Source: Mesodorylaimus sp. YZB2_4 (Eukaryota; Nematoda; Enoplea; Dorylaimida; Dorylaimidae). From it: 64,000 nucleotides of DNA. The number at the start of each line of letters is the position of its first letter. Within the stretch, counting starts at the first letter, position 1. The stretch lies in contig JASANH010000339.1 in the NCBI GenBank assembly GCA_030248295.1, forward strand, positions 186,001-250,000. The letters are read 5' to 3'. Of this stretch, positions 3,077 through 51,350 are shown piece after piece. The translations under genes were made by a program, and so were the position numbers. The notes below the pieces were generated by a model that was not told the DNA's origin, did no database searches, and was given only the letters and a program-made list of their open reading frames with translations.

Positions 3077-4450
3077 ATGAAGGTAAGGAAAGTTCAGATT
3101 TTTGGATTTAAAGAGATTGTTGTGCCACTGGGTGAAATTTAATTTTTAAACTTGCAAATTCACTGAAACTAGCTTTTACGCCTTCTTGTCAAGAAGAGAC
3201 AAGATTTCTGTGTCCATAGGTCCCTGTGAAATTGAGTTTGATTATTTTGGTAGGGGCCATGATGGATTATCTTTTTAGCTCAATATCGCGTATCCGGCTA
3301 CTGGTTGCCAGAAAGTGTTCGATTTCGAAGACGAAAAGAAAGTTCGTATCTTCTATGATAAGCGTGTGTCGCAAGAAGTCGATGGCAGTTCTCTCGGGGA
3401 TGAATGGAAGGTAAGAGCGTATAAAATGTGGGTCTGGAGGGAAATGGTGGGAGCCATAAAAGCTGGAAACCCCGCAAAGTAATTTATTGAGCGCATGGGC
3501 GTTTCAGGGCTACGTGTTCCGTATTGGTGGCGGGAATGACAAGCAAGGATTTCCGATGAAGCAAGGTGTTCTCACCAATCAGCGTGTCCGATTGCTTTTG
3601 GGCAAGGGGCATTCCTGCTATCGTCCGCGTCGTACGGGTGAACGCAAACGCAAATCCGTTCGCGGTTGCATAGTCGACGCCAACTTGTCAGTTCTCAGTT
3701 TGGTTATCGTTAAAAAAGGTAAGAAATTTTCACCTTTTTATTTAGCTTCAAGTACAGTAGTCTTTTTATTTTAGGCGAGCAAGATATCCCTGGCCTGACG
3801 GACACGACCGTTCCCCGTCGTTTGGGACCGAAGCGCGCTTCTAAGATCAGGAAGTTATTCAATTTGTCCAAGGAAGACGATGTTCGTCAATACGTTTTGC
3901 GACGACCGGTTACCGCCAAGGAGGGTGAGAGACTTTTCTAAATCTCGTGGAAAAAATCTTACTTTGCTATTTACAGGCAAGAAGTCGCGCACGAAGGCTC
4001 CAAAGATTCAACGCCTTGTGACGCCTTTGGTTTTGCAACGTAAGCGCCATCGCCTGGCTTTGAAACGTCGGCGTGCTGTTAAGCGCCGCGAAGACGCCGC
4101 AGAATACGCTAAGTTGCTGGCCCAGAGGGCTAAGGTACGTGCAAAAATGACAAGTTTTCCCTGGTGTTGTACTCAAATTATTTTAGGAGAAACAGCAAGA
4201 AAAGATCGCTCGTCGCCGTTCATCCGCTAGCCGATCATCGCAGTCGGAAGATAAGAAATCGTTGTCCAAGGCTTCTCCCGCTCCACCTGCGCCAGCCACT
4301 AAAGCGAAACCGAAGGCGGCCGCAGCACCAGCTGAAAAGGCCCCGGCAAAGAGTGCTGCCGCCAAGGCTCCACCAGCCACCAAGGCGAAACCAGCCTCCA
4401 CGAAAGCTCCCGCTAAGCAACCAGCCAAGAAAGAAGGCGGCAAAAAGTGA
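3077..4450 (+). CDS. RPS6: 40S ribosomal protein S6 with Ala/Pro/Lys-rich tail
   Basis: RPS6 is a 40S ribosomal subunit protein and a target of S6 kinase. Six exons: 3077-3082 (only Met-Lys), 3279-3410, 3508-3718, 3775-3924, 3977-4134 and 4187-4450. The core is highly conserved: [53 protein letters not shown] and [14 protein letters not shown]. The basic phosphorylation cluster [17 protein letters not shown] is present where the human protein ends. Beyond it lies an additional tail of about 60 residues of Ala, Pro, Lys, Ser and Thr, resembling a histone H1 tail. The total is 306 residues against 249 in human. The tail is encoded in frame in the last exon and ends at a normal TGA. The gene converges on UTP4 with 113 bp between stop codons. 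Confidence 0.96.
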
Positions 4451-7500: not shown

Positions 7501-10500
7501 ATGCGGCGAACGAGAGGGCCGTGCTTGGGGGCAAAGCGCCATTCAGGCATTTGATCGGTTGGATGACGACCGAACACCCGTCCCCATTCTCCTGCAAATA
7601 AATAAGGCGAGCCATCAGTCCTCCAGAAACATATTCAGTGACTGGATTCCCAGGACTGGAAAGGCGATTATTAGTAGCTCTGTTTATTTCTATTTTCTTA
7701 GTCGTGACTTTCTTGCTTACAAATTACCAAGCCACGCTACAACTGCCCCACAGTAGCTACAGCCCTCAAAAAATGGTCAAGGGGACTGTACATTGTCATG
7801 GGTCAATTGGACTCTGCATCGGACTGCACTCATAGACTTCTCAGCGCAGTGAGAGGAACTATGTATCCTCAATCAAATTTCCACACCCGCTATTACTTCA
7901 GTGAGAAAAAAGAAGGGTTCAGTTTTGCCAATCACATGACCAGTCTGCGCGCATGCATTCCCCTGCTCGGTGGCAGATTCAGCTGCTCACATTGCGCAGC
8001 CAGGTAACCAGTCAAGATGGAACACTTGCAAAGAATTACTATTTGTGGAACTCATAACTGACACCTAGATCGACAGGGCACCGAATGTCCTGTTTACCCC
8101 CCCCCCCCCAACGCGCAGCACAGTTTCTACTCCCTGCACCCCTCTAATCATTCTCGACTTGCTACCCTCCACCCCCCGCTCCAGGGGTAAGGAGAGCAGT
8201 AGGTGTAGGAATCGAATATAAACTCGTCTTGATCATTCGATGCCCTGAAAACAAGATCTAACAAATGGTACTGGGCTAAACCAGTGGTGCCAAAAACTCC
8301 AACACACATAAACTAGGCGCCATACACGTGTAGCCAGCGCCCCTAGCGGTTGGGAGTAATCGATACGCTCCCCTGGCTTCGGTTGATGTTTCTAGGGCAG
8401 GTATAGTCGCGAGACTTGCCTACCTCCAGTCGGAGTTTTTTGCTTAGAGACTTCGGTCTCGACTATCTCCCGCCGCCTGCGTGCGCTGGTTACACACGCT
8501 GCAGAAAATCCAAAAGATAGGTGGTCATCGAGCCAAAACAACGACACAGGCTGACGACGAGACAATGCGAACTTGAACATTCTCATCAGTTCTCTCGCGA
8601 TCTCTCAGTCTGTCAGTTGCTGCGTTGTTTTTGATGTTTTTGATTGATTTTGAGGATTCGCATCGAATACCAGCACGAGATATTGCAAAGCAAGGAAGAG
8701 GGATGGTCACAACTTGGCTGTAAAATTCGTGTCAGCAATGGCCAATCAGATGATGTCACGCTGAGGGAATCGACCAATCACAGCTCGCCACGCCCACATC
8801 GCGTGCTGTAAAGTGCGAGAGCGAGGAGGATTCCTTGTTGCGAGTGTGCAGTCGTCATTCTCTCGCGAATTCTCATCCAGAGCGGTTGTGCGATTCTCAA
8901 AGCGAAATCAGCGGTTTTTGCATCGAAGTGTTGTGGCGGTCAACGAGCGAGTCGAGGATGGCGAAGAGCAGTCGCTCGCTGAGGAAGGTCATCCGCAAGA
9001 AGCAGCGAAGGTCCCAATCAACGCGCAAGTCGAAGCGCAAGTCTGAGTCGGGAAAATCGAAGCGATCGCGCCGGTCGACGCGCAAACACAAGCCGAGGCG
9101 ACAACGGGACGAGCCATCGCTGATCTGCCGAGCCGTACTGAATCTGTTCTCCATCGCCGTCTTCCTGCTCACTGTCAACATGTGCACTGGTAAGCGTGGT
9201 CCCGTTGCTCTCATGGGGGCATGGCTGGGAGGAGGGGTCAGACTGATCGGGAGAACAGGAACATAAATCTTGGGAATACATATATTGCGCTCACAAAGTA
9301 TATTTTCGAAAATATATTTCTTGAAGGAAATAAATTCCGCTCGCATTTTGAGCAAAATATTTTTGTGCGAAATATATTCTCAAGCAAAATATATATTCGA
9401 GCAAAATATTTCCGTGCGGAATATATTTTCGTGCGATATTTTCGTGCGGAATATATTTTCGTGCGGAATATATTTTCGTGCGGAATATATTTTCGTGCGG
9501 AATATATTTTCGTGCGATATTTTCGTGCGGAATATATTTTCGTGCGGAATATATTTTCGTGCGGAATATATTTTCGTGCGATATTTTCGTGCGAAATATA
9601 TTTTCGTGCGATATTCTTATATCCACCAGCAGTTCCCGCACCCATGTACAATACACACGCCAAAGATATATGCTCTCGAGGAAATCTGTGCGTGCATTTT
9701 CACCGAAGATGCCGCATTCTTAGTGCAGATTCTTCTACGCAACTTTGATCCGTTTCTTAGCGTCCGTGCGATAACTGGATCAATTCGGCGACGAGGACAC
9801 GCTGGCGTACGAAGGCGGCCAGGTGGTCTACAAGGTCAGCGGAAATGCTGGCGAGACTGCTGTCCTCCTGGACTCGACCGGCGAAGAAGTGGCCAAAACC
9901 ACGTTGGACAAAGACGGCAAGGGCGAACTGGTCTTGGACCTGCACGCCGATACCGTACTGGGCCTGTACAAATACAAGGTCGGCGACGGCGAGGCGCAGA
10001 ATGCCTTCAGTCTCTACCACATGATGTGTAAGTGAGCCACTTTTTGTTCCTTGCTTTTCGACTCACATTTGATTTTCAGGCGCCCCCAATCGCCAAGGGT
10101 GCGGAAACAGGACGTACTGCGTCGTCTCGGACGATGGATTAAAGTCAGCCAAATGGACAAAACGTGGTGCTCTCAACACCCGAATCCCCTGGGCTGGAAG
10201 AAGGTGATCTGCAACGGCTCCGATCCCACGCTCTGCGAGTTGATGGCTAGTGGCAACTACGAAAAGGCGAAGGCTGAACAAACTGGCGACTGCGATGGTA
10301 AGTTTTACACTGGATTGGTTTTCTGCTGGTTCCAGTGCTCCTTTTACAGGCTCCACTCCGTACATGCACTACAACGGGACCGAAGGCCTGTACAGCTCCG
10401 CGTTCCGTGTCATCCGGAACATACCATTCTACGTCAGGTGTCCCCCTGGTTCGAGAGTGTGGCAAGGCAATGTCAACTGCTGGCTGATCAACTCGAGTGG

Positions 10501-31472: not shown

Positions 31473-34400
31473 ATGGCTACTAATTGCGAAACATCGATGG
31501 AAAGTACTACTCGAAGTATACGCATCCACTGCGTTTGTCGAGGGGATTCAACGCCTCAAGACGATTCCAATGCATTACTAGCCAAAGCATTCCAGGTATT
31601 TACCTACAGTATGCAAATGTAGCTAATTTAATGTTGGCCATTTTGTTAAAATTTTTTTAATTTGTTTATGTGCACTGTCCGCTTTGCTGCATACGTCCTG
31701 TAGAGGGAAAACTTCAGTTCTGTTTGTATGCGTTCACTTGCAAACTGTTTGCAAGTTTGTTTAAGTCCGAAAAAAATGTTTGAAACATTTTTGTGGTATT
31801 TTTTGTCAGGAACACCGTCTGATTTTAGGCCTTAACCGATGCTGGCATAACGCCAACGTGGACAAAAGAAAATTTTTGCGCCTCGCTGAGTAAACGCCCA
31901 CGAAATGAATTGTTCGTTTTATCCGAATTCGATGGTGCTGCATTCGAGAAATTGCGTTCGCTGCAATGCTCGTAAGTTATCCTTAGTTTGCACATATTTG
32001 TGCACGTTAAGGTGCTGTTCGCTTCCAGGATAATCGGCCCCGCGCTCGTTCTCAGCTGCCTAAAAGAAGAGCGGGTATGAAACGTTTTGTTATCGGTGTG
32101 AATCATGTAAAGAATCACTACTTTTAGCCCATGCCTCGAACTCATCGACCTATGCTGAGCGATTGCATGCGTGGTGTAGTTGCTTGCTGTACGAACCTTG
32201 CAAAGCCGGAACGGGTAAGCGATAGTCGCTGTTTTGTTCAACTCCGTCTTCATGTGTTGCATATGCAGGAGAAACTACGAGATATGATCTTATCCATGAA
32301 TGGCCAATGGGAACTGAGCCTTTCGAGCGATTGCAATGTTTTGATAACTCGAGAAGTTGGATCAGACAAATATAAAGTAAGTTTGCTTTCGGTTTAGCAG
32401 TGTATGCGGTTTTTTAATCGTTAGTTTCAGGCTGTTGCAAAACAACAAAAAAACACGCCAATCGTCACTCCTGATTGGGTGCAAAGCGCTTGGCAACGAA
32501 GCCGTTTCGAAATCTTCAAGGCGCTCGATGAACCCGAGATGTTCGCAAAGTTCAAGTGTCCAATTTTTTCGGGCTTTGTTATAACCGTTTCAAATTTACG
32601 AAATGATCAAAGAAAACTGGCTATGCGACTGATTGCGGAAAATGGTAAGTGGACGGAGCTGTTTCTAGTATTATGTTTCTGTATGGACATATGTGAATTT
32701 CAGGCGGGACTTATACGGGCGAGATGAAACAAGGTGAAGTTACTCATTTAGTCACGGACTCTGCAGACAGTAAGTCCTGTGGTTTTATGATTTTTGTGAT
32801 ATTTTTGTCTCTTTTTAATCCAATTGCAGGTGAAAAGTACAAGGTTGCCAAGAAGTGGACAACTTGGTCGGTCCATATAGTCTCAAAGTCCTGGTTGTTC
32901 GATAGCGTAAGCCGAGGTTATTGCCTGGACGAAAATGACTATTTGACGGATAATAAGGACTGCGGCGAAGAGAGCCCGAAGCGCGACGCAAAAACCGCCA
33001 CCCGACGCAAACAAAAGTGCTCAACACCGGCTGCTAACAGCAGCGCTTCGTCGAGTACAGTCAGTAAGTCACTGGTTTTCTATCAGCTTTAGAGAAACTG
33101 AAAAACTAATCAGCAATTGGTTCATTCTAGCGGCTCCTCGGTTTTCTTACGCCGATCCGAACAGTACTGCCATGACTGCCATCATTCCCGATGTACCAAA
33201 TGCAACTGTTGCGTCCAATGTGACCCTGGGTGTCACTACGTCTTGTGTGAACAATACTGATTTGTCCGATGTTCCAGCTCCCAGTAATTTTGCTCAAAGT
33301 CACGTCAATCCCGAATTCTCGAAAAGTTGTGAAACGACCATTAGCGCCCCAGTTGATGATGACGCCGCTGGTGTCGCTGCTAGTACTGCGGCTAACGCGG
33401 ACAGGGATTTTGATCCGTCCGCTCCCATGAAGCGGTATGTTTGGTCGATCTAGGCTTCCGCTTTATGGAAGAAAAAAATTTTTTGTTTAGACTACGATCC
33501 GATAACGAGTCCGTGCAGTCGCCCGCAAACGCAACTAGTGAAGGAGCTTGCGCATCTAAGACTTCAGAGCAGTGAGTACATAAGCAAACTTGAATATGGC
33601 AGATTACTGATCACTAGCTTGTTGTTTTAGGCATCGTCCATCTACGGCTATGAAAACTATAGCGACGGCAGCCCCGTCACCAGCCGCGTCGGACGTCATG
33701 AGTCAATATATGGGTGATGAACATGCAGGTAGGAGAAGTGTTTTATGATCTTTGCGTGCTCGATTTGGAGTCTGTGCAGGCCACTGATACACAAAGTCTA
33801 ATTTCTTTCTAGACGCTAATCGGTCGTTTTGTCCCAAGTTCAGTATTTCCGAAGCACTGGATTATGTTGGGCCAGCAAAGCCGCCAGAGGAGGTGAGGTA
33901 GTGCAGTCGGGTACCTTTTTATATGCCTTACATGCCAGCTCTATTTTAGTCGCCCACTGTCGTCGTTGAACGGGGATTGAATGCTGCAGTGGAGAGCACA
34001 GCGGCTGGCGCCAGTTTCTACAAAAGTCCCATCACTAAGGACGAAATTCGTGAAAGCGTGACAAATTACATGAGACAAATCACTGGAGGCAGGACTTCGT
34101 TCAAGAGGCGCATCAGCAACGTGTTCGCCACTACTGTTCCTGCAGTTGCTGTATCGCCTGTAACACCCGCGGCAGAGGAGAAGGATTCGTTCTTGAAGTA
34201 CCCATTGTTTATGAGCCAAGATACTCAGGAAGAGAATATAGTAATTGGCTGGGATGATCCAAATCAAAGGTAAGCATGGGATTTTGTCCTGTGTAGTCTT
34301 GCTTTTTGGCAGCGAAGGATAGTTGAGACTGATTCTAGAACCAGGGAATATCCCCTCCTTGCAGTAGGGCTGTTCAGGCTACTCCAAATCTTATTTTTGA

Positions 34401-36870: not shown

Positions 36871-37655
36871 AATAGAAAGAGTCTGCAGAAATGACACTCT
36901 TGTTCCTGCAGCTGTCGCAGCAAAACTCGTCTGACAGTGCCTGTCGGGACGAATACGCCAGGTAATTTTAAGATTTGACTATTTTTCTGATGGCTTATCG
37001 ACCATCAAGGTTTTTAGGCATGTAAGAATACCTTATCTGGTTGGTAATGACCGGGTCGTAGATTGCCCCTCCCACCGCCCTTCGTCGACATACGGAACTC
37101 TAACTCTGATCGTGAGCATTTCGTCCTAGGTGTGTTCAGAGGCCACTACTGGTGTCAGCATTGTTTGACTGAACGTCGTTTCAAGGGTGAAATGGAAGAA
37201 AAGCTAAGCCAGGAACTATCGAAAGAACAATTACAATGATCCGAATTTGAATTGTGTGACGAGTTAGAACTGACTGCTGATTGGACTATCTTCTGAAACT
37301 CCTGCTAGCCCCCAGATATCGCGTCACGGCTCGAAGAACCTGACACTACCCACGCGGCGAAATTATAATGGCTCACGTGGCCAGCAATCGAATCGCCACC
37401 GACTCCTGGCCAAGTTTTGTATTCCCAATGGTAGCCGATGATCAACATCAAATATGAAGCGAAGAGGTGTCGTAGCAAGCTCTCAGGAGGGTTTGTGAAC
37501 ATGTAATCAAAGTGAAGTGGGGGAGATCATTATTATTATCTACACATATCATCAAAGTGATCCAGGAAACAGATTAGAGTTTTGCCTGGCGTGTGGACGC
37601 GGCTCCGTTTTGAGCTTTCTGGATATCGCCGTTACGAGGATCAACTACTGAAGAG
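36871..37655. other. no gene seen; upstream of first DEG/ENaC gene
   Basis: No exon with similarity. The last few hundred bases should contain the promoter of the gene at 37656, but no element stands out. Confidence 0.4.
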
Positions 37656-39281
37656 ATGCAAGGGGAACTGAAAAACTCGATGGAAACTGCTCGCGACGAC
37701 TTTGTGGAGAAGATAAGTGTGGCTGGTTGGAAAGAAGCATTTGGTGAACGCGTCACATGGATCGCTCATGTGTTCAAGGTGGTGCTGGCCTTTTTGTCCG
37801 TCGCTTGCGTGTATTATCTGTACAAAGGAATGCTCGAATGGGTCCACAGTGGATACACAGACGAGATATCCGACGTGGCCGTCGTACAGTCCCAGCCCAT
37901 GTCCAATGTCAGTGTGTGCGCCCAAGTCTACTTTAATCAAACATTCGTCAAGCAAGCGGTTACAGTACCCCCGGCAGTCATTGATGAGCTCAAGAAGCAA
38001 GGAGGCGAATCTGCCTTGGAAGATTTCTACCGCCAACTGGCCCTATACTTAAGCGCAATAACTCGCACTCGCAGTTTCGATAAAAAAACGATGGTTTATT
38101 TTCGCAAAATAATTCAAACCAACCCCCAGCTTCAAGATTATTCCGCTTTTTCAGCAGGAGCCGTAGCAACTTGCCGACGCATGTTTAAGCGGTGTTGGTT
38201 TGATGGGGACGAGTTCGACTGCTGCGCACGAGCAGTACACTCGCTGGACGACGACGGTGTCTGTTATGTGATTACAGTAAGTCAATACCAGGACTGGTCT
38301 CCCTCGGCAATAGCTAAGCTCCTTTCAGCTCAACATGGACAGCGACAACGCCCAGCCATCACCGCTCACTTATCACCAAACCAGACCAGGTCCGATGGGA
38401 GGCTTGAGCATAGAGGCATCGCTGGAGCTGAAGGACTTTCCGTGGTTGGAGGACGATGCCCAGAATGGGTTCAGGGTGATCGTGGGCCCCACTCCGATCA
38501 GTGCTTTGGTGTCGCCCGTCACCGCACCAGACAGAGCCGAGACATTTGTCAGAGTCGTTCCGTCTAAGCAGCAGCTGGCAACTGATTGCTCCCCGCCTGG
38601 CCATCTGTCCATGAGGGGGGGTGATTTCATGTACTACGACCCCGAGGGCTTCAGCTGCATTGTTCGAGAATTCGTGCGTGTGGCCAGGCAATATGTGTCG
38701 TGCGACTTTGCTCCGTATTTGAACCGACCCAACAGCACAGTCGGGTGTGGCCCGAAAGTCAATTACTTCCTCTCATCAATGTTCGCCGCCACAGACTTTG
38801 ATGGCGCAATCGGGGTGGTTGGCCAAGAAGTTGAAGCACTCGGGATGTCCAGCCAGGAGGTACGTTTTAAGAGAATGTTTTCACAGGTTCATAATCTCAT
38901 CAATTTTTTCAGACCAAAAGGGTAGCCAAAGAGTGTGAAGAAGCTTTGAAGGCGGCACTGTCAGAGAAATCCCGTTGTCCGAGCCACTGCACCCACTGGA
39001 CCTACAGTAGCACAGTCAGTTTTGTCGACTTGGACAACGAGGAAGCCAAGCACGAACGCATGTACAGTAGGATACACGTCTATTACTCGGAACTGTCCTA
39101 TCGTCAACACACGCAGGTCAAGGAGAAGACCATCTACCTGGCCTTTTGTGAGATGGGCAACGTTGTGGGCTTGTACTGGGGAATGTCCATCGTCAGCTTC
39201 GTCCATGTTTTTTATTATGTTCCCATATATGTCTACGCTTTGAGGAGAAGCCGCCAGACAGCAGTGCAGCCTCAAAATTAG
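37656..39281 (+). CDS. DEG/ENaC (amiloride-sensitive) cation channel subunit
   Basis: Degenerin/ENaC subunits form trimeric sodium channels gated by force, acid or peptides. Three exons (37656-38276, 38329-38859, 38913-39281) give 506 residues. TM1 is at about residues 37-60 (VTWIAHVFKVVLAFLSVACV). The loop has the family landmark GVCYVITLNM, cysteines spread over the thumb (CSPPGH, CIVREFVRV, YVSCDF, GCGPKV, KECEEAL, CPSHCTHW), and a pre-TM2 segment YLAFCEMGNV. TM2 follows (GLYWGMSIVSFVHVFYY), holding the selectivity motif Gly-x-Ser as GMS. The tail is short (ALRRSRQTAVQPQN). The His-Gly gating motif normally found before TM1 is not visible. It is in tandem with the mucin-type channel gene 2 kb downstream. 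Confidence 0.88.
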
Positions 39282-41253
39282 CTGCTATATTGTATATATA
39301 CATGCATGCTGTGAAATGAAGATTGCATTGTTGTTTTTGAATCAATAAAATTTTTGCTGCTGTGTCTTGAGATCCTTTTATCATCACGGTATCAACTCAA
39401 GAATTTACTATGAAGGTCTCTTTCCTGCAGCTGTTTGCTACGTAATATTCGGAACAACCCAATAATGGAGAAGACACCGCGAAGTGCGGATGGCCTACAG
39501 AATTTTCCAGGCAGGCCTCCTAGTTAGTCGTAGGGGACATCAACCCGCCAGGTTTCTGCCTCCTCACCTGGAGATTGTATCGAACGGCCAACGGAGGCAA
39601 CTGTGTAGGGCGGCCAGATAAGGCCACCGGATACACTGCCTACCCCGCAAGCTTCACTTCTCCACTTCTACTTCAGATATAGCCGCTGCTTCGAGCAAAC
39701 TTCAAGTTTGGCAGCAGGAAACTTTGGGCCTTTGGGGCTTATTTATACAGATTTAGAAAATCACACTTTCAAACAGTGATTTCGTGATTTTCTACCATTT
39801 ATTTTGCGGCGAGGTGAATTGCTCATCAACTTCGCCAGGTTTGTCGAGAAGTCGACTGTAAGCAACCAATTGTGGCCAAAATACGCCAATTTGCGACTCA
39901 AGAGCGACTCGGCATGAAATTTTTTCGATCACTTATGCAGAATCAGCTTCAGGAATGTAAATCTGAGATTAGAAAAAGGCTCAGGGTCAGTCGAAGGTCA
40001 CGTGCCATGGATCGGACTAAGGCTTCTACGCGGCACTGAATGGCCGTAGCATGAATCACTCGCCTGCGTAAAATCATCAGCAACATATTGTCATAATATA
40101 GGTCATACTTGGGGCCTCTTCCTAGAAGTGCTGAGATTTACTGTACCCTGCCAAAACCCACGAAATGATGCCGGAGACTGCTTTATCATCTTTGTACATC
40201 TTTGTTATCATCTAGAACCCAAGGAGGATAAAACCTGGTCAAAGGTTCTCCTGCGAAACACTGTTGCTCCTTAGCCTGTCTTTGCAAGCAGAAAAACCTT
40301 GTTAGCCGCTGTGCAAGGTCAGCTCGCACAATCTCGTGTCTGTGTGCGTCTTCACGGAGCGTTAACATTAGGCCAGCTTTTTTAGGACTTCATAACATTT
40401 TTGTGGCTTCGTCGTTTAATAGCGCACGGACTCTAAACCCTGTCTATCTTCGTTAGGAAATTTTAATTTTACTCAGCCTCTGGCTCCCTGATTGAAGCGC
40501 CCTGACAATATTAAGTGAGTCACTTTCGGCCTGGAGTGTAAGGTCAGTAGCTTACAGATAAAGTTAAAAACCTGGGATGAGCTCAGACACTCTCTGTCAA
40601 GCAAAGATTTTTAATTCCTGAACACCGAACATGATCACTTGCTGCTGCCATTCGTCGAGCCTGGTGACTGTTTATTGCGCACAGCATGTTTGCGATTTCT
40701 TTCAATGAGCCACTTTTTCTGAAGCACTCTGTCTCTTTACGTAACTCAACGGTAATACTGTATGTCTGCTCCTCGAAACTCAAAGAATAAATTACCTACT
40801 GCAGTTGTTCAGTCGCCTCATCTTTGCAACCTAGTGGTCGTCATAGAAGTCGAACGTGGATGCTTATTCCGAACATTGACCAGCTGCTGCTGTTTGAGCC
40901 CGACAGGAAGAATGTAAGGACACGGCTCGTTGGTTTTTCTGGTCCTCTTCGCGGAGATGTTGTTGGCCCTATTGAGCTTGATCTCGAAAGAATAGGTGCA
41001 GCCGCGGGAATTTTAGAATAGCTAGGTACACATCGGAGTTTCCCCAGCGACTTGGACGATATTATTTATGAGGTGACAGACATTGTTATAGCTCACGAAA
41101 TAAGGTCTGATTGGCCTCCTTCGCAGTTTCCCTGGGTTAACTTGCTTTGGAGAACAATGGTCGACGTCTGTTAAAAGAAAAGAGAAAGGAACTCATCAAA
41201 GAAACTCTGCTGAATTTTCTAGGCAGACTGTTAAGCCCTATTATTCTAAACAT
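39282..41253. other. no gene seen between the two DEG/ENaC genes
   Basis: About 2 kb with no recognisable domain. Open frames at 40583-40783 (minus) and 40824-41021 (plus) have no similarity I can name. It could contain the promoter and 5' exons of the downstream channel gene, whose N-terminus is uncertain. Confidence 0.45.
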
Positions 41254-44200
41254 ATGGAAAGATTTGAAATTTGGATATTGGCGATACTATACGTCCTGTC
41301 GAAGACTCATTCACTGCTATCCCCATCTTTGTTCACCTCCCGCTCTGCAACAGCAATATTACCTGCTGCACATGCCGCTTTGTGGACAAATGAGCCTTTG
41401 TCAACCAAACCCGTTTCTGTACAAATTGCCACGCCACTTCTGAATCCCTGCCCCTCTGATCCACCTGTCCTAGGAGCAAACCTGCCTTTGATTAAAGCAT
41501 ATTGTTGGGCCACATTCCTAGCCTTACCTGCTATTCACACAGCCGTGCTAACCTTTTCCATTAGTCTCGCTGCCATCTTGACAATGATCACCCTTCATTT
41601 ATTCCTGACCAAGGCTATTTTTATCGGGAGAAGAGAAGCGGAACAGTCCATTTCAACATTTCGCTTGATCAGTCTTTTGATCATCATCGGAAGTCAAAGT
41701 GGCAAAGGTGTCCTAGGTGTCTCAACATCTACGAGTATGCCACCCGGCACTATCCCTCCATCAGTGCGTGTTGCTTGTGAGATAACAACCACAACGAGAT
41801 CTACTTCATCTAGCTCCTCAACCACATCTACCAGCATTCCAATAGCCATTATTCCTTCGTCAGTGCGAGTTGCTTGTGAGATAACAACCACAACGAGATC
41901 TACTTCATCTAGCTCCACAACCACATCTACTACAACTCCTAAACCAACTTCATCCACCTCCACAACCACATCCACGAGTACTCTCAAACCAACTTCATCC
42001 ACCTCCACAACCACATCCACGAGTACTCTCAAACCAACTTCATCCACCTCCACAACCACATCCACCAGTACTCTCAAACCAACTTCATCCACCTCCACAA
42101 CCACATCCACCAGTACTCTCAAACCAACTTCATCCACCTCCACAACCACATCCACCAGTACTCTCAAACCAACTTCATCCACCTCCACAACCACATCCAC
42201 CAGTACTCTCAAACCAACTTCATCCACCTCCACAACCACATCCACCAGTACTCTCAAACCAACTTCATCCACCTCCACAACCACATCCACCAGTACTCTC
42301 AAACCAACTTCATCCACCTCCACAACCACATCCACCAGTACTCTCAAACCAACTTCATCCACCTCCACAACCACATCCACCAGTACTCTCAAACCAACTT
42401 CATCCACCTCCACAACCACATCCACCAGTACTCTCAAACCAACTTCATCCACCTCCACAACCACATCCACGAGTACTCTCAAACCAACTTCATCCACCTC
42501 CACAACCACATCCACCAGTACTCTCAAACCAACTTCATCCACCTCCACAACCACATCCACCAGTACTCTCAAACCAACTTCATCCACCTCCACAACCACA
42601 TCCACCAGTACTCTCAAACCAACTTCATCCACCTCCACAACCACATCCACCAGTACTCTCAAACCAACTTCATCCACCTCCACAACCACATCCACCAGTA
42701 CTCTCAAACCAACTTCATCCACCTCCAAAGTTTCAACATCTGCTGGCAGTTTAATAGGAATGATGGCGAGTGTTCCGCCAACAGTAACTGTAGCATGTGA
42801 GAGCACTACAACGACTGAGGCTACTTTGGTCAGCTTCTGGTCATCAATATCCACTAGCTCTCTGGAGACAGCTCCACTCTTTTCAACGGTATCAGCATCC
42901 ACAAGCAGTCCAGAGCGAGCCTCGTCTAGTTCTACAGCGTCAACCTCTACCAGGACTCCAATGGCTACTTCGCTCGGTTCGACAGTATCAACATCCACCA
43001 CCAGTCCAAAGTCAACCTCTACCAGGACTCCAATGGCTACTTCGCTCGGTTCGACAGTATCAACATCCACCACCAGTCCAAAGTCAACCTCTACCAGGAC
43101 TCCAATGGCTACTTCGCTCGGTTCGACAGTATCAACATCCACCACCAGTCCAAAGTCAACCTCTACCAGGACTCCAATGGCTACTTCGCTCGGTTCGACA
43201 GCATCAACATCCCCCACCAGTCCAATGGCTACTTTGCTCATCAGTTCGGTAGCATCAACACTCACTAGCAGTCCAGAAGCCTTGTCTACTTCAACAGCGT
43301 CAACCTCTACCAGCGCTCCAATATCAACTTCGCCAGCATCAACGATTTTTTACACTACATCTCAAACTACTCCAATCAACTCAATTGCGTTAACGTCAGT
43401 AAAAACTTCAAGCTTGTCTATCGCCCCAAGCCCAAGCACGAGCCCTACTACTCCATCGATGCAATCTTCAGCGTTTATCGCCACTACCCTGGTCAATGCA
43501 CCTGTCGTCGCTACATCGAGTACCTCTTTTTCAACAAGTCCTATTGCCCAAATCACTGTGATTCCTGCATTGCCTGAAACATCTGACAGCATTTTGTTAA
43601 GCAACCCCAGTGCATCTACTGCGACAAGTGCTGGCATAGACGCAAGCGTCTTTTCATCTTTGGCCAGACCAATCACTACTCAGATAACAAACGCTGAAAC
43701 AAGCACAGAACGCTCATTGATAGCAAACGTCACTGCACTGATGTCAACTTCATCCAGTTCTGCAGCTCCCAGCATGGTATCTTTGACCACCCCTACCAAC
43801 ACTATGCCAGTGATATCTGCTGGAAGTATCCCCCTGACTACAACGTATGCTTCGGTAATTTCAAGTACTATCGAGAACATTGCCCTGTTCAGTTCCACAA
43901 CTGAGAATGTCTTCATGAAGCAGAGCACTAGCGCCATCTCAGAACAAACAGCGCAAATGATAAAATCTACCAACAGTCCAAGGCCCACAGCCTCGTCCAC
44001 TACTGTTGAGGGCGTCACCACTTCCTCTGACTTCGAAATTCAAGCAGAAATAGCCACAAATCCATCGAGTCCGTCATTATTTCTGTCAGACTCGTCAGCT
44101 GCAGCAGTGTCCATATCTGCCCCTCCGATCGTGAGCTCAACTGACTCCATGCAATTTTCAAAGGTGATAACCCAAAGTTCAGCTGATGCGGGTTCAAGTC

Positions 44201-47200
44201 AAGACATCAGTCCCACCACAACTGGCTCGATGACCAGTCCAATGTCTATATCAGACACTGATGCAAGCACACCTATTATAACGGGCAGCACAAGCTTTCC
44301 GCAATATTCACCAAGTCCTCCAACAGTATTTATTCAATCTTTGTCATACATCACTAGCACACTAGGCACAGCCCCTGAAACGATTCCTGAGAGTAACATC
44401 GCAACTTGGATCCCTTCTTCAACTCCAGTGCCAACAACCCACGTCGAGTCGTCACAGTTCGAGTCAACGGGTGCACCAACTCCAACTAGTGAATATTTAA
44501 AATCGTCAATAATTACCACCCCGCCTGCACCGGACACTCTTTCAGCCATCAGCCTTTCATCGAAGCTGCCCACGAGTCACTTAACAAATTTCTCTGCCAT
44601 GGTAGCCGAGGCGTCTATTGGGTCAAGCATTGAAATTACTACGTTTGAGACCGAGTCAACCGCTGCAAGCGCTGTAGAAGATGAACAGTCATTCTCCACA
44701 GATGAAACAGCATCAATATCCAGTAGAGGCAGCAGCAATCTAATAAGCGCAGAAACTTCCGAATTTACTGCTCTAAGCACATGGTCTGCTTCAACAACCC
44801 ATGCGAACGAGACCATCATGATTCACAGCAGTTCAGAGACAGATTACATCAGCGAGACAACACTCATCGCTACTACAGCAAATGCACCTGCGCCTTTGCT
44901 CACATCAGAAACTACAGTCAGTGAAACAGCTGGAGTGGTCTTAATGGTGACCACGCCCTCCGCCACAGCCACGAGCACACATGAGTCCTCACCAGCACTG
45001 GCCTTAGCAGGATCTGACACTCTAGACTCAACTACAACCTCCTTTTATCCTTCTGTGTTTCCTCGATCCACAACTGACGCACTGCCCACTTTGGGGAGCT
45101 CTGGATTTGAGGAAAACTCGGCAATGCAGTCATTTGCATTCATCAGCCCTTCTAATCACAGGTCGACATCAGATTTTACGACTGTCATCACACCAATTGA
45201 GTCAGCCTCCTCTGCTATTCCCTTTGATCCAGAAGTCGCCATGACTTATTTACCTGCGCAGAGTACAGAAGTGGAGGTGCAAGCCAACATCTCGCTCGTG
45301 ATGTCAGACGGGCCAAACGTATTCACCATGTCGAAGACAAACTCCCTCGCTAAGACTATGTTTGAAACCACCACTGCTGCCACCTCCATCTCATCTGCGC
45401 CTATCGTTCCATCCTTTGTTTCAACAGAGCTGCAAAACACGAGTGGTCCCTTCATGACTAATAGCCAAGCCACGCCAGCTACCATGACGCAGGCGGTAGC
45501 TGCTTACAGCGATGTTACAGCGATGTCAAATAGCGCCAGTGTCCAAGCGAGCTCCTCAAACACAACTTCTTACCCAGACAGGCCAACTTCAGCTGCTTCT
45601 ATGACTTATATCCCAACTCAGCAGGCTAGTCCTGTTTCCTTTGGTGTAAGCACTCCGGCACAAGCCTCCGAAAATATTTACATAGAAGGCATCAGTAATG
45701 GCACAGATACTTCTGCCTTAGGCCCAACCTCCGATTCAGTGTTGGTAGCAGACCCTGAAGCTACTTCGTCTTTCGCTGATGCTGCTTTTGCAAAGCGTAA
45801 CTTCGGAACGGTCTCCCAACTTCCCAGCATAACTTCTGTCCATGAACTCCCACTCACCGCTTTCACTTTATCCACAGGGCATACAGTGCCTTTAGCAGAC
45901 CCAACAGCTGCTCTTCTCGCTGAAGCGCCAAACACATCGATTACTGAGCCTATCGACCCGTTGCACGTATTTCCATTCCAGCCTGATTCCGCTTTGTCCC
46001 TAATGATCAGTGATACGCCGACAGCATTCGAAGCCGATATGGGTGGTAGGACATTCCGATATGCAGGTTCACCTGGCACGTCTGCATCCATTTTGACTGA
46101 CAATGCCGGTGTCCTGACAGCCACTCTTGCAGCAAGCAACCAGACATCAAATTATGGAGAGGCTGACCCGAGTCTAGAGGCCAGCGCTATGCCACAAGCT
46201 GCATCCGACTTGCAAGGAGGAGAAAGAACGATATCACTTACCCCTGATCTCTCACAGCGTGAACCCCAAGACGCTCCATCTGACTTGGTGAAAGGTGAGA
46301 GCGAGAATCTGATCTCGCCCACCCCTGATCTCTCCCAATCTGGAGGCCTTGGCGCTACCTATCAGGGAGGAGACAGAACGATTGCACCTTCCCCTGATCT
46401 CCCAAAGCCAGAACGCCAAGACGCTCCATCTGTCTTGCAGGGCGGTGGGAATCCAATATCGCCTACCCCTGATCTCTCGCAGTCTCAGCGCCAAGACGCT
46501 GCATCTGACTCGCAGGGAGGAGAAAGACTGTCCTCGCCCACCCCTGATCTCTCCCAATCTGGACGCCAAGACGCTGCGCCTGACTCGCAGGGAGGAGAAC
46601 GACTGTCCTCGCCCACCCCTGATCTCTCCCAATCTGGACGCCAAGGCGCTGCATCTGACTCGCAGGGAGGAGAACGGCTGTCCTCGCCCACCCCTGATCT
46701 CTCCCAATCTGGACGCCAAGACGCTGCATCTGACTCGCAGGGAGGAGAACGACTGTCCTCGCCCACCCCTGATCTCTCCCAATCTCAACGCCAAGACGCT
46801 GCGCCTGACTTAAAGAAAGGCGAGGAACCGATCTCACTCGCCCCTAGCCTCTCACAGTCTGAACGCGAGGACGCTCAAAATCGAAATGTTTCCAAATCGT
46901 CGGTGGAAAAACCCTTATCGAAGCCATTAACAACATCCGAAGTGCGGACATTACTTTCTTCTGCTGGCATTGAGCCCGTACGTGTTCATCGTCCCTTCCA
47001 TCAGTTTTTCCAACACGATTCATTTTAGGAAACGTTGAAAGATACGGCAACGGTGGCCACAGCTCTCAGTGACTCATTACCCTTCGTGTTGGAAGAGTTG
47101 ACAGAAAAAGAAAAGTCGATCCTGTACTTCGATTTGGACTCCGTTGTAAAGTTTTGCATGTATGACGGGCGTATGTGTGATATGGAAAAGTAAGCTGATC

Positions 47201-50200
47201 AGAGATGGCGTGCGCAGGATCGTCAATGGCTTCTTTTAGCGAGTGGAAAACCGAAGTCAGCCCTATATATGGCAATTGCTTTACATTCAATCCGCACAAC
47301 CCGCCGTTGGAAGCTGCTAGTTATGGTAGCCAGCGAGGTAAGCGCTTCATCCTCGGGTCAGACCTCAGACTGGGTCCTGTCCGTGGCTGAGCGCACTACA
47401 GTAGACTTTACCCCAGTGCGCAGTTACAGGTAGGTACCTAAAAGTCGTTTCTTGTGCGCAGTTCACCCTCACTAGATTGCGCACTGCCTTCAGTGATGAG
47501 GTGAAACGGAGGCCTGAACAGCTACAGAGCGCAAGCGTCGCTGCGTGACAGAATTTTTAATTCTTGGGTTTCGGCGTGCTAGCAGTTTGGATAGACTTTC
47601 GACTTTCGATTGGGCTTTGTTCGAATACAATAGGGCATAGCCGAGCAAAGCCGACATTAGAAACATGCCGGACTGATGTATTGATTTGGTCATGCAGCAG
47701 TGTCTGTTCAGTCCAAGTTCAGTCCAAGAGATGCGACCAAGTTCATGCTCGTTATAGGTCTGTGGGTACTCCTCGAAAACAACGAGAACGAGCACACTTG
47801 CAACGCGTTGTCGAGTGGCTTCGTCGTTCAGCTACATGAACAAAACGAGCCCATTTTACCCGAAATATCTGGTCAATATGTGGCACCAACATTCGCATCT
47901 AATTTTGCATTCGAAAAAGTAAAAAGGGCACTTTTATGATCTTTTGAAATTCTTTGATGCTGTAGCAGCAAAAATGTTTTAGAATACGATCTCGAAGCTG
48001 AAATATCCGTACGGCTCGTGCACAAGCAACAACGACCTTCTCGAGCATTACTATTACTCAAATGGAAGCTATTCGGAAGAGGTGCCTAAATTTGACACAT
48101 CACATCTAGTTTCGGACCAATCTCATACTGGCACGAAGAAAACTGCTGTTCAGAGTCCAATTGCTCATAGTTATTCTTCCAACTAGAAGCTCTCTCAGAA
48201 GTGATTCTCCGAGCCTTTTTCTTTTAGCTGTGCATACGCAGCTGTTTTCAAAATTATGTTATTCGTTCGTGCGGCTGTGCTGATCCCAAGTATGGGAAGC
48301 CGGACAATGCAAAGTTCTGCACTTTAGAAAATGGAGGAAGTAAGGATCAGGTGCATTCTTTGCGCATGACCCCAAAATACACTTTATTTTAGAGCAATGT
48401 GTGGATAACTTAGCAAAATGCGAAACAGATCTGATGTCGAAAATAAACTGCACTTGTCACCCCGCCTGCGAGTAAGCTGTCGACTTGGGACTAGCGCGAG
48501 GATGGATTCTGAAGCTTGTTTTTCTAGGAGCAGTCAGTTTAAGTCTGATATCACCCAATCTGTTCTCCAGACATCGACACCCTTTGTAAGTCTGTGAACA
48601 AGATTAGTTGAGCTAAACATTTTGATCGAACCCAGCTTATTTTTAGAAACCTGCGGGCAATTTCAACATGACCAGATTCAAAAATCTGCGAAGGTGTGTT
48701 TACTCGACTTCTGTTTGACGCGGTCGCATACAGTAGCATCCACTCGTGGGTCTGCAACCACAAAACAGCAAATATACTGCATTACAGTGCGTTGCCAGGT
48801 CCGACATTGGGTCCCAAAACCCAACCCATTTTTTTGGGTTTTCGGGTTGGGTTGGGTCGGGTTTTCAGACAGGGCGGTTTTGGGTTGTGAAGGTTGACCT
48901 TTTTCCCAACCCAACCCAAAAAAAACTTTTCCACTTGCTGTGCCTTATTCGTCAGCATGAGTATATGTGGTTGATCGGCACAGCGTTTTTAAAAGCCACT
49001 GCAACATGATGTCCGCTTTTTTGAGTCGACAGATCCTGGTGTTTAAAAAAACGTACCCAGTGCCCCCAGCTAGTCTAATTCAACATGTCACAGACCGTGA
49101 CGGAACTGAGAAACCGTCTGTTAGCAGATGATATCGAGCTGATCTGATCTCTTGTCGACTTGCAGAGATCAGGTCAGTCAAGTCCAAATTTCGAAAATTT
49201 GAAAGTTTGGTCGGTGAGAATTCATGAAGAAGCCTTTTGCTTTTTGGCAGGGGATGGGCTTGAGTTTTTGGCTGGGTTTAGAGAGTGATTTCTTGCCTTG
49301 AAACAGGTATTTCCTGCAAATTTATTCATAGACTATTCAGAAATTATGTCTGCTAGAGGCCAATTTTGCAGAAATTTTGCCTCCGGCCCCTGCGCCCCAC
49401 CCCTACTCGGCCGGTTAAGATTATCCTCGAGCACTAAATTAAAGCATATTTATGCAATCTTTTTTGTTGGCCCCTGAAGACCCCGAAATCTTGCGTAGCC
49501 GCCTGACCTGACGTGAGCCACTGCCGCTCTATCGGAGGGAGACCAGCATCTCCTTGTTTGACGAACAGGGGTTGTAAGATTAACTAAAAGTGCCCTGGTG
49601 CAAATGGTCCCTCAGAGGGGTCATGTTATTAACTTGCAGCTCGAAAAGGGAATGGTCGTTGAGATATTAGCAGGATACTTCTCAGGTCTTTGGTTATTTT
49701 TTAGGAGTCCAAATACCGACTTTGGAGGTGCAGTCAGATTAGCTCGCGCCAGTTTATCACCTGCTAGATAAGTTGCTTCTGGTATCCCTGCAGATCTTTT
49801 TGAAGTTAGATGAAGATGCGAGCGGGCACGACACACTGAACTGCTCAAAAATGTATTCATCGTAAGGTCACCTTTCAGAGTTGTGTGCAGCGTCAAAATG
49901 TGCCATACTGGAGCCCCGGGGACCCAGGGTAGACTCTTCCACTAACCTCACAACTTCTCTCTCAGGGGACGCTTTCGAGTAAAGCCACCATGCCCAGATT
50001 GCTTTCCGTCAGGTCGCTTAGTGAAGAATGATAGCATTTTCACAAAAATGTGGTCATGCTGATAATATAACTTCACTGAACAAAAGTGTTTTTTTTGGGT
50101 TTTAGTCAATTTTTTCAAAAAATATGGTTTTTTCATGGGTTGGATGAGGGTTCACTTGCGAATGGGTTGGGTTTGAGTTTTTAAAAATGGGTTTGGGTGG

Positions 50201-51350
50201 AGCTGTGAACCCATTGTCGGACCTGGGGTCAAGTCCAACCCTCTTCACGGAATAGCGGGAGGCACACTCAATCGACTGACCAGGCTAGGACAAGGCATGT
50301 TCAGACAGGAGTTATACAGTGGCTGTAGGCTGTTTTCTTTGAGAATATACCCGCACTTCGCGTGCCTCGTGTACATTCCCATAGAAAACAGATACGGGGG
50401 GGAGTTCAATTCAATTTCTCTTGTAAAATTGTCTCGACGCTACCCACTGAAATGCCCGTTTCCTCCGCTATCTAGACAACGTCTGTTCGAAGGTCTCCTT
50501 TCCCAATCTTTGCCACAACATCGCATTTGTTGGCCAGTGTCGCCTCAGTTGGTCGTCCAGATCTTGGATCATCTTCAATCGATTCTCCCCCCAACTTTGA
50601 GCAATTCTCCCCCCACTTTTTCACTGACGGCAATATAGGTGCCTCATTGCCATACACTAAGACCATCCGATCGCTAATTTCTGTGGGCTTCAAGCCTTCT
50701 TGTGTTTAAAACTTGATGGCAGACTGATGCGCAAAATTTATCAAATTTGTAATTTCTCTGAGCCACTTCCAAATAAATGACCATATCTCAAGAACGCATG
50801 AATGGATCAGCGCGATTTATTGCAGGGATTCTAATGGGATGTGTGGCAGTGTAAAGTACATATCTCACTGCTGCAGCTCATGAGGAAGCTACTCAGGCTA
50901 CGAATTTTTTGAACTCTCTCCGTAGTAGCTCTGGCAGCAATCATGTGCATTCTTTAAAGCATTTTCGAACAATCAGTAGATTCAAATCAGCATTGGTCGT
51001 ACGGAACCTGTTTTTTGCAGGCGCGACAAGGCAGCTTTGCACGTTTATTACTCGCAACCGTATGTGATTCACTACAGGGAACGGCCAGCCCTCAGCGTAA
51101 GGCCTATCTGCTACTCTAAGTCCCTTATGTCATGTTGCAAGCATGTTATCCATTTCAGATCATCAATCTGCTCTACAGCATTAGCAACTTCCCGCAGATG
51201 TTTGCCGGAGCATGCATGATTTCATTATTTGAATTTGCATGGCTAGCTTGGCTCATGTTCACCAAAAAAGACCCTCCTAAATTTTATCATTCTCCCAACG
51301 CTTTCGACAACGGGTGTCTCCCGAGCCAAATCGTGAGAAAATTGCGATAG
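41254..51350 (+). CDS. giant mucin-type DEG/ENaC channel subunit
   Basis: Eleven exons: 41254-46977, 47029-47189, 47240-47337, about 47712-47918, 47983-48081, 48228-48339, 48393-48471, 48528-48585, 48647-48693, 51021-51096 and 51159-51350, together about 2,280 residues. The first exon holds a DEG/ENaC-like TM1 (YCWATFLALPAIHTAVLTFS, then SLAAILTMITLHLFL) and a post-TM1 PPSVRVACE motif. A Ser/Thr-rich tract of about 1,700 residues with three tandem repeat arrays follows. Later exons encode the channel ectodomain: SPIYGNCFTFNP, LHEQNEPILPE, KYPYGSCTSN, LCIRSCFQNYVIRSCGC and INCTCHPACE. TM2 is SNFPQMFAGACMISLFEFAW. The selectivity position reads GAC where the family has GxS. The phase into exon 4 does not close with my boundaries, and the N-terminal start is uncertain. 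Intron 9 (2.3 kb) contains a mobile element and a mariner relic. Confidence 0.85.
41953..42717. repeat. 17 tandem copies of a 45-bp coding repeat
   Basis: Seventeen head-to-tail 45-bp units encode STSTTTSTSTLKPTS, or close to it, within the mucin-type channel. The copies are almost identical in DNA sequence; the main difference is CCACGAGT instead of CCACCAGT in a few. Such uniformity points to recent expansion or gene conversion. Every second residue or so is a possible O-glycosylation site. Confidence 0.95.
42947..43232. repeat. 4 tandem copies of a 72-bp coding repeat
   Basis: Four units of 24 codons, with AGGACTCCAATGGCTACTTC recurring every 72 bp from 42952, encode RTPMATSLGSTVSTSTTSPK and four further residues. 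They lie inside the mucin-like region of the channel gene. The last copy has begun to diverge (VSTSTTS becomes ASTSPTS). Confidence 0.9.
46195..46865. repeat. about 9 copies of a 75-bp coding repeat, charged/Pro-rich
   Basis: Units of 25 codons built on SPTPDLSQSGRQDA and SDSQGGERL lie at the C-terminal end of the mucin-like region, just before the channel domain resumes. The four units from about 46.48 to 46.80 kb are nearly identical; earlier units are degenerate. Unlike the Thr-rich arrays this repeat is rich in Asp, Gln, Gly, Glu and Arg, so it is probably a non-glycosylated flexible linker. Confidence 0.9.
48795..50226. mobile_element. 1.4-kb element with 18-bp terminal inverted repeats and G/T-rich subterminal arrays
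   Basis: The left end CCAGGTCCGACATTGGGT and the right end ACCCATTGTCGGACCTGG are inverted with one mismatch. Next to each end are arrays of TTGGGT/AACCCA units. No transposase frame is present inside. It lies in intron 9 of the mucin-type channel gene. The right end is followed by GGGTCAAGTCC. I could not identify a target duplication with confidence. Confidence 0.75.
50405..50695 (-). pseudogene. mariner-type transposase fragment
   Basis: The minus strand encodes KKWGENCSKLGGESIEDDPR, SGRPTEAT and then, after an in-frame stop, IAEETGISVGSVETILQEKL. The ESIEDDPRSGRP block and the helix-turn-helix after it are the N-terminal DNA-binding region of mariner/Tc1-type transposases. The catalytic DD(D/E) part is missing and the frame is broken by at least one stop, so it is dead. 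It lies in the same channel-gene intron as the 1.4-kb element, outside its ends. Confidence 0.75.

Follow-up and report, generated by a model that had tools for sequence, protein, structure and literature searches.

Here we describe a locus of the dorylaimid nematode Mesodorylaimus sp. YZB2_4, which lies in a window of 64,000 nucleotides (nt), the whole stretch of DNA analyzed (C62:186001-250000, C62 being the label of its contig); the genome searched comprised 145 megabases in 1,067 contigs. On balance, we favor the reading that this locus encodes one nematode membrane protein of the DEG/ENaC superfamily, approximately 2,240 residues long, whose finger would bear a mucin-like arm that may work as a brush or tether. 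The model of this gene, hereafter the target, consists of ten exons that were chosen by hand to keep phase, nine of them downstream of the mucin exon, and it encodes 2,244 residues. Its features, in positions of the window, are as follows (TM1 and TM2, first and second transmembrane segments).

41254 to 46977, plus strand: exon 1, N-terminus and mucin-like tract, 1,908 residues; start uncertain, the frame being open from 41104 and an acceptor-like site lying at 41222
41506 to 41628, plus strand: candidate TM1, a hydrophobic stretch of 41 residues that no profile recognizes
41902 to 42727, plus strand: repeat array 1, 45 nt x 18.4, unit TSSTSTTTSTSTLKP
42939 to 43225, plus strand: repeat array 2, 72 nt x 4.0
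46459 to 46810, plus strand: repeat array 3, 75 nt x 4.7
46924 to 46977, plus strand: end of exon 1, PLTTSEVRTLLSSAGIEP; the counterpart on contig C147, before the same intron, is LSERAALYAAFLELGIDP
46978 to 47028, plus strand: intron 1, 51 nt, phase 0, linking mucin to channel
47029 to 47189, plus strand: exon 2, finger (VVKFCMYDGRMCDM)
47240 to 47337, plus strand: exon 3, PIYGNCFTFN motif
47758 to 47918, plus strand: exon 4, GLWVLLENN...FAFEK
47983 to 48081, plus strand: exon 5
48228 to 48339, plus strand: exon 6, thumb cysteines, CIRSCFQNYVIRSCGCADP
48393 to 48471, plus strand: exon 7, CVDNLAKCETDL...CTCHPAC
50889 to 50921, plus strand: exon 8, tentative; in phase, acceptor weak
51021 to 51096, plus strand: exon 9, AALHVYYSQ
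51159 to 51350, plus strand: exon 10, TM2 with GAC at the selectivity position, then stop

The first exon lies within an open frame of 1,974 codons that runs unbroken from 41104 to 47028, and from its first in-frame ATG at 41254 it spans 5,724 nt up to the donor, which confirms the single continuous 5.7-kilobase (kb) exon of the initial annotation. A stretch of about 158 residues precedes the Ser/Thr-rich tract, which occupies the last 1,750 residues of the exon and contains 43.4% Ser plus Thr, 8.3% Pro, ten N-glycosylation sequons and three Cys. The Ser plus Thr content peaks at 76-79% near the first array and is down to 21-26% in the last 400 residues. The periods of all three arrays (45, 72 and 75 nt) are multiples of three and in frame; compared with their consensus, array 1 (18 units) and array 3 (4 units) each showed six synonymous and three non-synonymous codon differences, and array 2 (3 units) showed none. 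The target thus displays the long Ser/Thr/Pro-rich tract with tandem repeats that characterizes a mucin, and the earlier description of a Ser/Thr-rich tract with three repeat arrays holds.

The channel half matched the Pfam family ASC (PF00858) with 130.5 bits (E 1.2e-37, profile positions 139-453; curated cut-off 23.6 bits), an earlier hand-spliced draft having reached 118.4 bits. Among PDB entries, 26 sequences were matched at E 0.01, the best being ENaC alpha (chain of 6bqn, E 1.2e-21) and gamma (E 1.6e-21), followed by ENaC beta and delta, ASIC and FMRFamide-gated channels, and the alignment to ENaC alpha and gamma revealed the Cys-rich finger and thumb as well as a GNCFTFN-type motif. Since the match starts at profile position 139, the mucin ends just ahead of the first cysteine pair of the finger. 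Eight of the nine acceptors were judged good by eye (tttag, ttatag, tttcag and gcag types). Intron 7 (window 48480-50880, plus strand), repeat-rich and 2.4 kb long, contains stretches rich in GGGTTGGG and, on the minus strand at 50472-50702, a mariner-like fragment recognized by eye, without a Pfam match.

The two halves are joined by a donor GT at 46978-46979 and an acceptor AG at 47027-47028, so the in-phase splice proposed for these positions was reproduced as a 51-nt phase-0 intron. The closest relative of the target, on contig C147 (49% identity across exon 4, exons in the same order), carries upstream of its channel exons two TSP1 domains (TSP_1, E 5.5e-11 and 1.4e-10) and a Thr-rich mucin-like frame of 552 codons (Ser plus Thr 0.68), and in both genes GI(D/E)P closes the segment before the finger, the next element being a phase-0 intron of 51 nt. 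It is highly improbable that the locus holds two genes, a channel and, ending at 47028, a mucin that is secreted or membrane-bound. With intron 1 retained, the mucin frame does have its own stop at 47026-47028; however, the same junction is seen in C147, in another relative, C387, the insert frame continues without a stop into the finger segment, though the two are probably separated by a 57-nt in-frame intron, and the upstream neighboring channel ends at 39281, with no TM1 recognized from there to 47029. The shared C147 junction and the open C387 frame make two separate genes unlikely, and mucin and channel, as read from the sequence, very probably belong to one gene; this part of the initial annotation is well supported, also by a mucin exon on contig C233 that is in phase with the finger. 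The neighbor itself (window 37614-39281, plus strand) is a second DEG/ENaC gene with a recognizable TM1, a TM2 that reads GMS and no mucin exon seen.

The paralogue on C233 locates the insertion site. Its upstream part is ordered as TM1, a phase-0 intron, ILINNNPLEFPAVSVCNLNPY, an exon ending in ERKRRAATLG and an IgGFc-binding domain, and one translated frame runs through them all; the hand-spliced chain matched ASC 7-119 (6.8e-14) and IgGFc_binding (1.9e-17) in that frame, and both TM1 and the FPxVxxCN first palm strand (here FPAVSVCN) are present. Its downstream piece matched ASC 145-261 (5.8e-17), and a mucin exon of at most 1,695 residues, counted from the start of the open frame (Ser plus Thr 0.354), joins the finger in phase 0 across a 55-nt intron. 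The IgGFc part and the mucin exon were read as two halves, with the link between them unspliced. As the C233 pieces end and start at ASC positions of about 119 and 145, the insertion lies between them, and the point in the target (139) falls within this interval. Directly before the IgGFc insert stands a polybasic ERKRR, furin-like by eye (L062 on C233, reverse strand 3642-3792), which recalls the proteolytic cleavage sites known in the ENaC finger. Across the genome, 13 pairs matched by hand between TM1/strand places (found with the C233 exons) and finger places lie 3.9 to 14.9 kb apart (median 9.1) on one strand, with no partner assigned to two other places on C233 and a weak one on C34; ordinary channels of this genome hold nearly the whole ASC profile within about 1.3-1.4 kb (first three places).

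Upstream DNA was inspected for 17 genes, the target included, six of which were chosen for Ser/Thr-rich frames and five for TM1/strand exons far from the finger; as the sample was partly selected for inserts, its counts give no estimate of frequency. Long frames precede the finger in all but C305 (16 of the 17), and many of them are cut off by the edge of the stretch examined. Ten are mucin-like, with Ser plus Thr of 0.35 or more (the target, C147, C1:2274k, C233:28k, two genes each on C17 and C215, C441 and C76), and five have Ser/Thr of 0.18-0.24 (C387, C114, C79, C90 and C1:1961k). C11 has a frame reported as 4,076 codons, which would lie at about 1109761-1121988, between the strand exon and the finger exon, and in which MopE-like metal-binding motifs (4.5e-9) were found in the 800 codons tested of the 2,496 retrieved. 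Lectin_C was recognized in C1 (2e-10) and C17 (1.1e-6), each once two exons had been joined by hand; the lectin-like joined piece of C215 gave no Pfam match. In three more distant channels (C14, C30 and C7:261k; L042-L044), inserts near the site are short or absent. In a tree of 92 columns and 19 rows of the 25 sequences with a hit (L034, L042, L043, L044, L052 and L055 omitted, and a chance exon-6 hit of L022 excluded), the target paired with C147 (0.936) and the insert bearers did not fall in one clade.

Two candidate N-termini of relatives were set aside in this survey: an 809-residue frame at C1 proved to be a separate sphingomyelin phosphodiesterase gene, and on C147 a TM-like N-terminal stretch containing an HG-like motif (L039 near 7028) had no Pfam match. 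In addition, an unnamed domain separates the lectin-like exons from the mucin in L071 and L072 (C17 and C215), the two being similar by eye and below the Pfam cut-off.

The N-terminus of the target is less easily placed. The initial annotation had seen a DEG/ENaC-like TM1 in exon 1, a claim that was not borne out: what is present is the hydrophobic stretch at 41506-41628 (19-residue mean hydrophobicity up to 2.03), which no profile matched. The N-terminus had no match in Pfam at E 1 and no relatives within the genome; the stretch gave nothing at E 20 against an in-genome TM1 profile of 16 sequences and was not among the places found with the TM1/strand exons of C233, and a search upstream of the finger for FPxVxxC and HG motifs did not identify a TM1 or strand, the profile and motif searches covering part of the upstream DNA. 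Codon usage scored without stops was neutral, since 46% of non-coding windows score at least as high as the 155-codon N-terminus and 45% at least as high as the stretch itself; an apparent coding signal over the N-terminus came from a first score that counted stops and was gone once these were excluded. Chance openness of the frame is nevertheless unlikely, 205 codons being open upstream of the mucin, against 0 of 2,000 resamplings in that frame and 1 of 2,000 in any of the three frames. An upstream exon bearing TM1 is possible. With TM1 unrecognized and codon usage neutral, the target could cross the membrane twice, as a subunit whose TM1 has diverged, or just once.

Downstream of the junction, the finger, thumb and TM2 that had been called normal are all encoded, but TM2 reads GAC at the position where GxS is usual. 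The GxS selectivity tract is typical for DEG/ENaC rather than defining. Among 13 TM2 stretches found by pattern search, after nine other hits had been excluded by eye as non-TM2, GxC occurred in six (the target, C147, C305, C76 and two C215 genes; window TM2, L018, L024, L028, L031 and L040), GxS in five (L003, L004, L006, L023 and L034), GAG in one (L008) and GFD in one (L036). Because the third position of the tract bears on cation selection, the GxC proteins could differ from ordinary sodium channels; no insert was found at C305, which also has GxC, and the change may thus be independent of the mucin.

Transmembrane mucins, like the target, combine a membrane anchor with a long ectodomain of Ser/Thr/Pro tandem repeats, and to our knowledge none of them has a channel domain. 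The target shares finger, thumb cysteines, GNCFTFN motif and TM2 with known DEG/ENaC proteins (ENaC alpha and gamma, ASIC1, FaNaC); unlike them, it adds a mucin-like tract of about 1,750 residues before the finger cysteines, its TM1 and first palm strand are unrecognized, and it has GAC at the selectivity position. The MEC-4/MEC-10 touch channel of C. elegans is likewise a nematode DEG/ENaC channel with a proposed extracellular tether (PMC9108448, in excerpt), but there the matrix proteins MEC-1, MEC-5 and MEC-9 are separate genes, whereas in the target matrix-like domains would sit within the subunit. DEG/ENaC channels of touch neurons work with extracellular partners that have been proposed as tether (excerpt of PMC9108448), and the N-glycans of ENaC act as shear-force tethers, coupling matrix to gating through the ectodomain, with added N-glycans raising the shear response in a matrix-dependent manner (PMC7958617, in excerpt). 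Those tethers are single N-glycan sites; the target has a predicted O-glycan brush, with ten sequons in 1,750 residues.

From these comparisons a mechanism may be proposed. The mucin-like arm, about 1,750 residues long, would end at ASC position ~139, a site where the family appears repeatedly to accept long inserts; its Ser/Thr tract would bear O-glycans and stretch over hundreds of nanometers outside the cell. A trimer would carry three of these arms, together a brush attached to the finger-thumb lever, and pulling on the brush, compressing it or binding to it could thereby change gating, and the arm would replace the separate tether proteins (MEC-1, MEC-5 and MEC-9) proposed for the touch channels of C. 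elegans. An extracellular arm with predicted glycosylation is the natural reading of the target sequence. A mechanical brush or tether appears most likely for the target, in which no binding module is recognized; for the lectin and IgGFc relatives, sensing of ligands or surfaces seems likely. The earlier suggestion of a channel carrying its own glycosylated tether or brush stands in part: the arm is the natural reading and is made plausible by the ENaC N-glycan tethers (PMC7958617, as excerpted), while the lectin, IgGFc-binding and TSP1 modules of relatives fit ligand binding equally well.

Several observations weigh against the favored reading. The target lacks a recognizable TM1 or FPxVxxCN strand, has GAC in place of the usual GxS and includes a weak exon 8, and the phase agreement of its exons is no independent evidence, as they were hand-picked to hold phase. 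C305 shares GxC, yet the roughly 4.2 kb examined ahead of its exon 4 contain no long Ser/Thr-rich frame; among eight further relatives, seven had no Ser/Thr-rich frame within 1.5 kb of flank, which is too short to decide, and C7:824k had one of 107 codons. Mucin is not the rule among the inserts, as five of 16 have Ser plus Thr of only 0.18-0.24. In addition, the channel part had no homologue in the protein database at E 1e-5, and a search with the full-length target (words from residues 1900-2190) did not find the same build at E 0.01; a control with an ordinary channel of this genome gave four hits, one from a rotifer, indicating that the database is poor in metazoan relatives and that these absences say little. 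Among the open-licence papers listed, none dealt, by title or abstract start, with a DEG/ENaC protein joined to a mucin, thrombospondin, lectin or IgGFc-binding module.

Three other explanations of function have to be weighed. The arms may serve chemistry rather than force, with the mucin shielding a protease-sensitive finger segment and the lectin, IgGFc-binding and TSP1 modules making ligand- or microbe-sensing channels. This is possible, if doubtful: Lectin_C in C1 and C17, IgGFc_binding in C233, TSP1 in C147 and the MopE-like repeats of C11 all fit, as does the furin-like ERKRR just before the C233 insert, given the proteolysis of the ENaC finger, but the target has mucin only and no recognized binding module, and the lectin-like piece of C215 is without a Pfam match. 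A half-channel is rather unlikely. On that view, TM1 and the first palm strand are gone from the target and its closest relatives, and these proteins mediate adhesion as mucins or lectin-mucins, the retained finger, thumb and TM2 serving as an anchor or making them a regulatory subunit that stays silent. In its favor, the genome search with the C233 TM1/strand exons matched nothing at C62, C147, C215, C441 or C76 nor near the C17 genes, MERFEIWILAILYVLSKTHS looks signal-peptide-like by eye, and GxC occupies the selectivity position. However, at the point in the order where a TM1 belongs, the target does have a hydrophobic stretch of 41 residues, short first exons may have escaped detection (as the acceptor-like site at 41222 suggests), and the signal-peptide starts of C17 and C215 were rejected as unsafe because of possible introns. 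Finally, the target could be a non-functional copy of a build that is real in its relatives, to which the weak exon 8, the unrecognized TM1 and the 2.4-kb repeat-rich intron 7 would point; 1,974 stop-free codons and repeat arrays kept in frame make this improbable.

Beyond the target, chances seem about even that the DEG/ENaC finger is a site of domain shuffling in this nematode lineage, where mucin, C-type lectin, TSP1, IgGFc-binding and metal-binding-type inserts would have produced a channel repertoire with built-in matrix or ligand arms, and where one branch, the target among its members, would have switched its selectivity tract to GxC and perhaps lost the usual TM1. By which route force arrives at DEG/ENaC channels, and through which extracellular tether, is a standing question, and knowledge of the tethers has been described as scarce (PMC7958617). 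If a subunit carries its own glycan arm, the tether becomes a deletable and swappable part of one protein; if different arms occupy one site, they offer a natural set of variants in which to compare gating by force and by ligand.

Elsewhere in the window, BRCT-domain exons lie at 32425-33089 on the plus strand (BRCT 8.2e-05, PTCB-BRCT 3e-06) and a tandem array with a 17-nt unit, ATATTTTCGTGCGGAAT, at 9357-9610. The genome itself reads as that of a nematode: the arthropod-type cuticle domain had no match, although its controls gave nothing either, the cuticle-collagen N-terminal domain PF01484, which we take to be nematode-specific, had 133, and by eye a copy of cytochrome oxidase I translates well under the invertebrate mitochondrial code.

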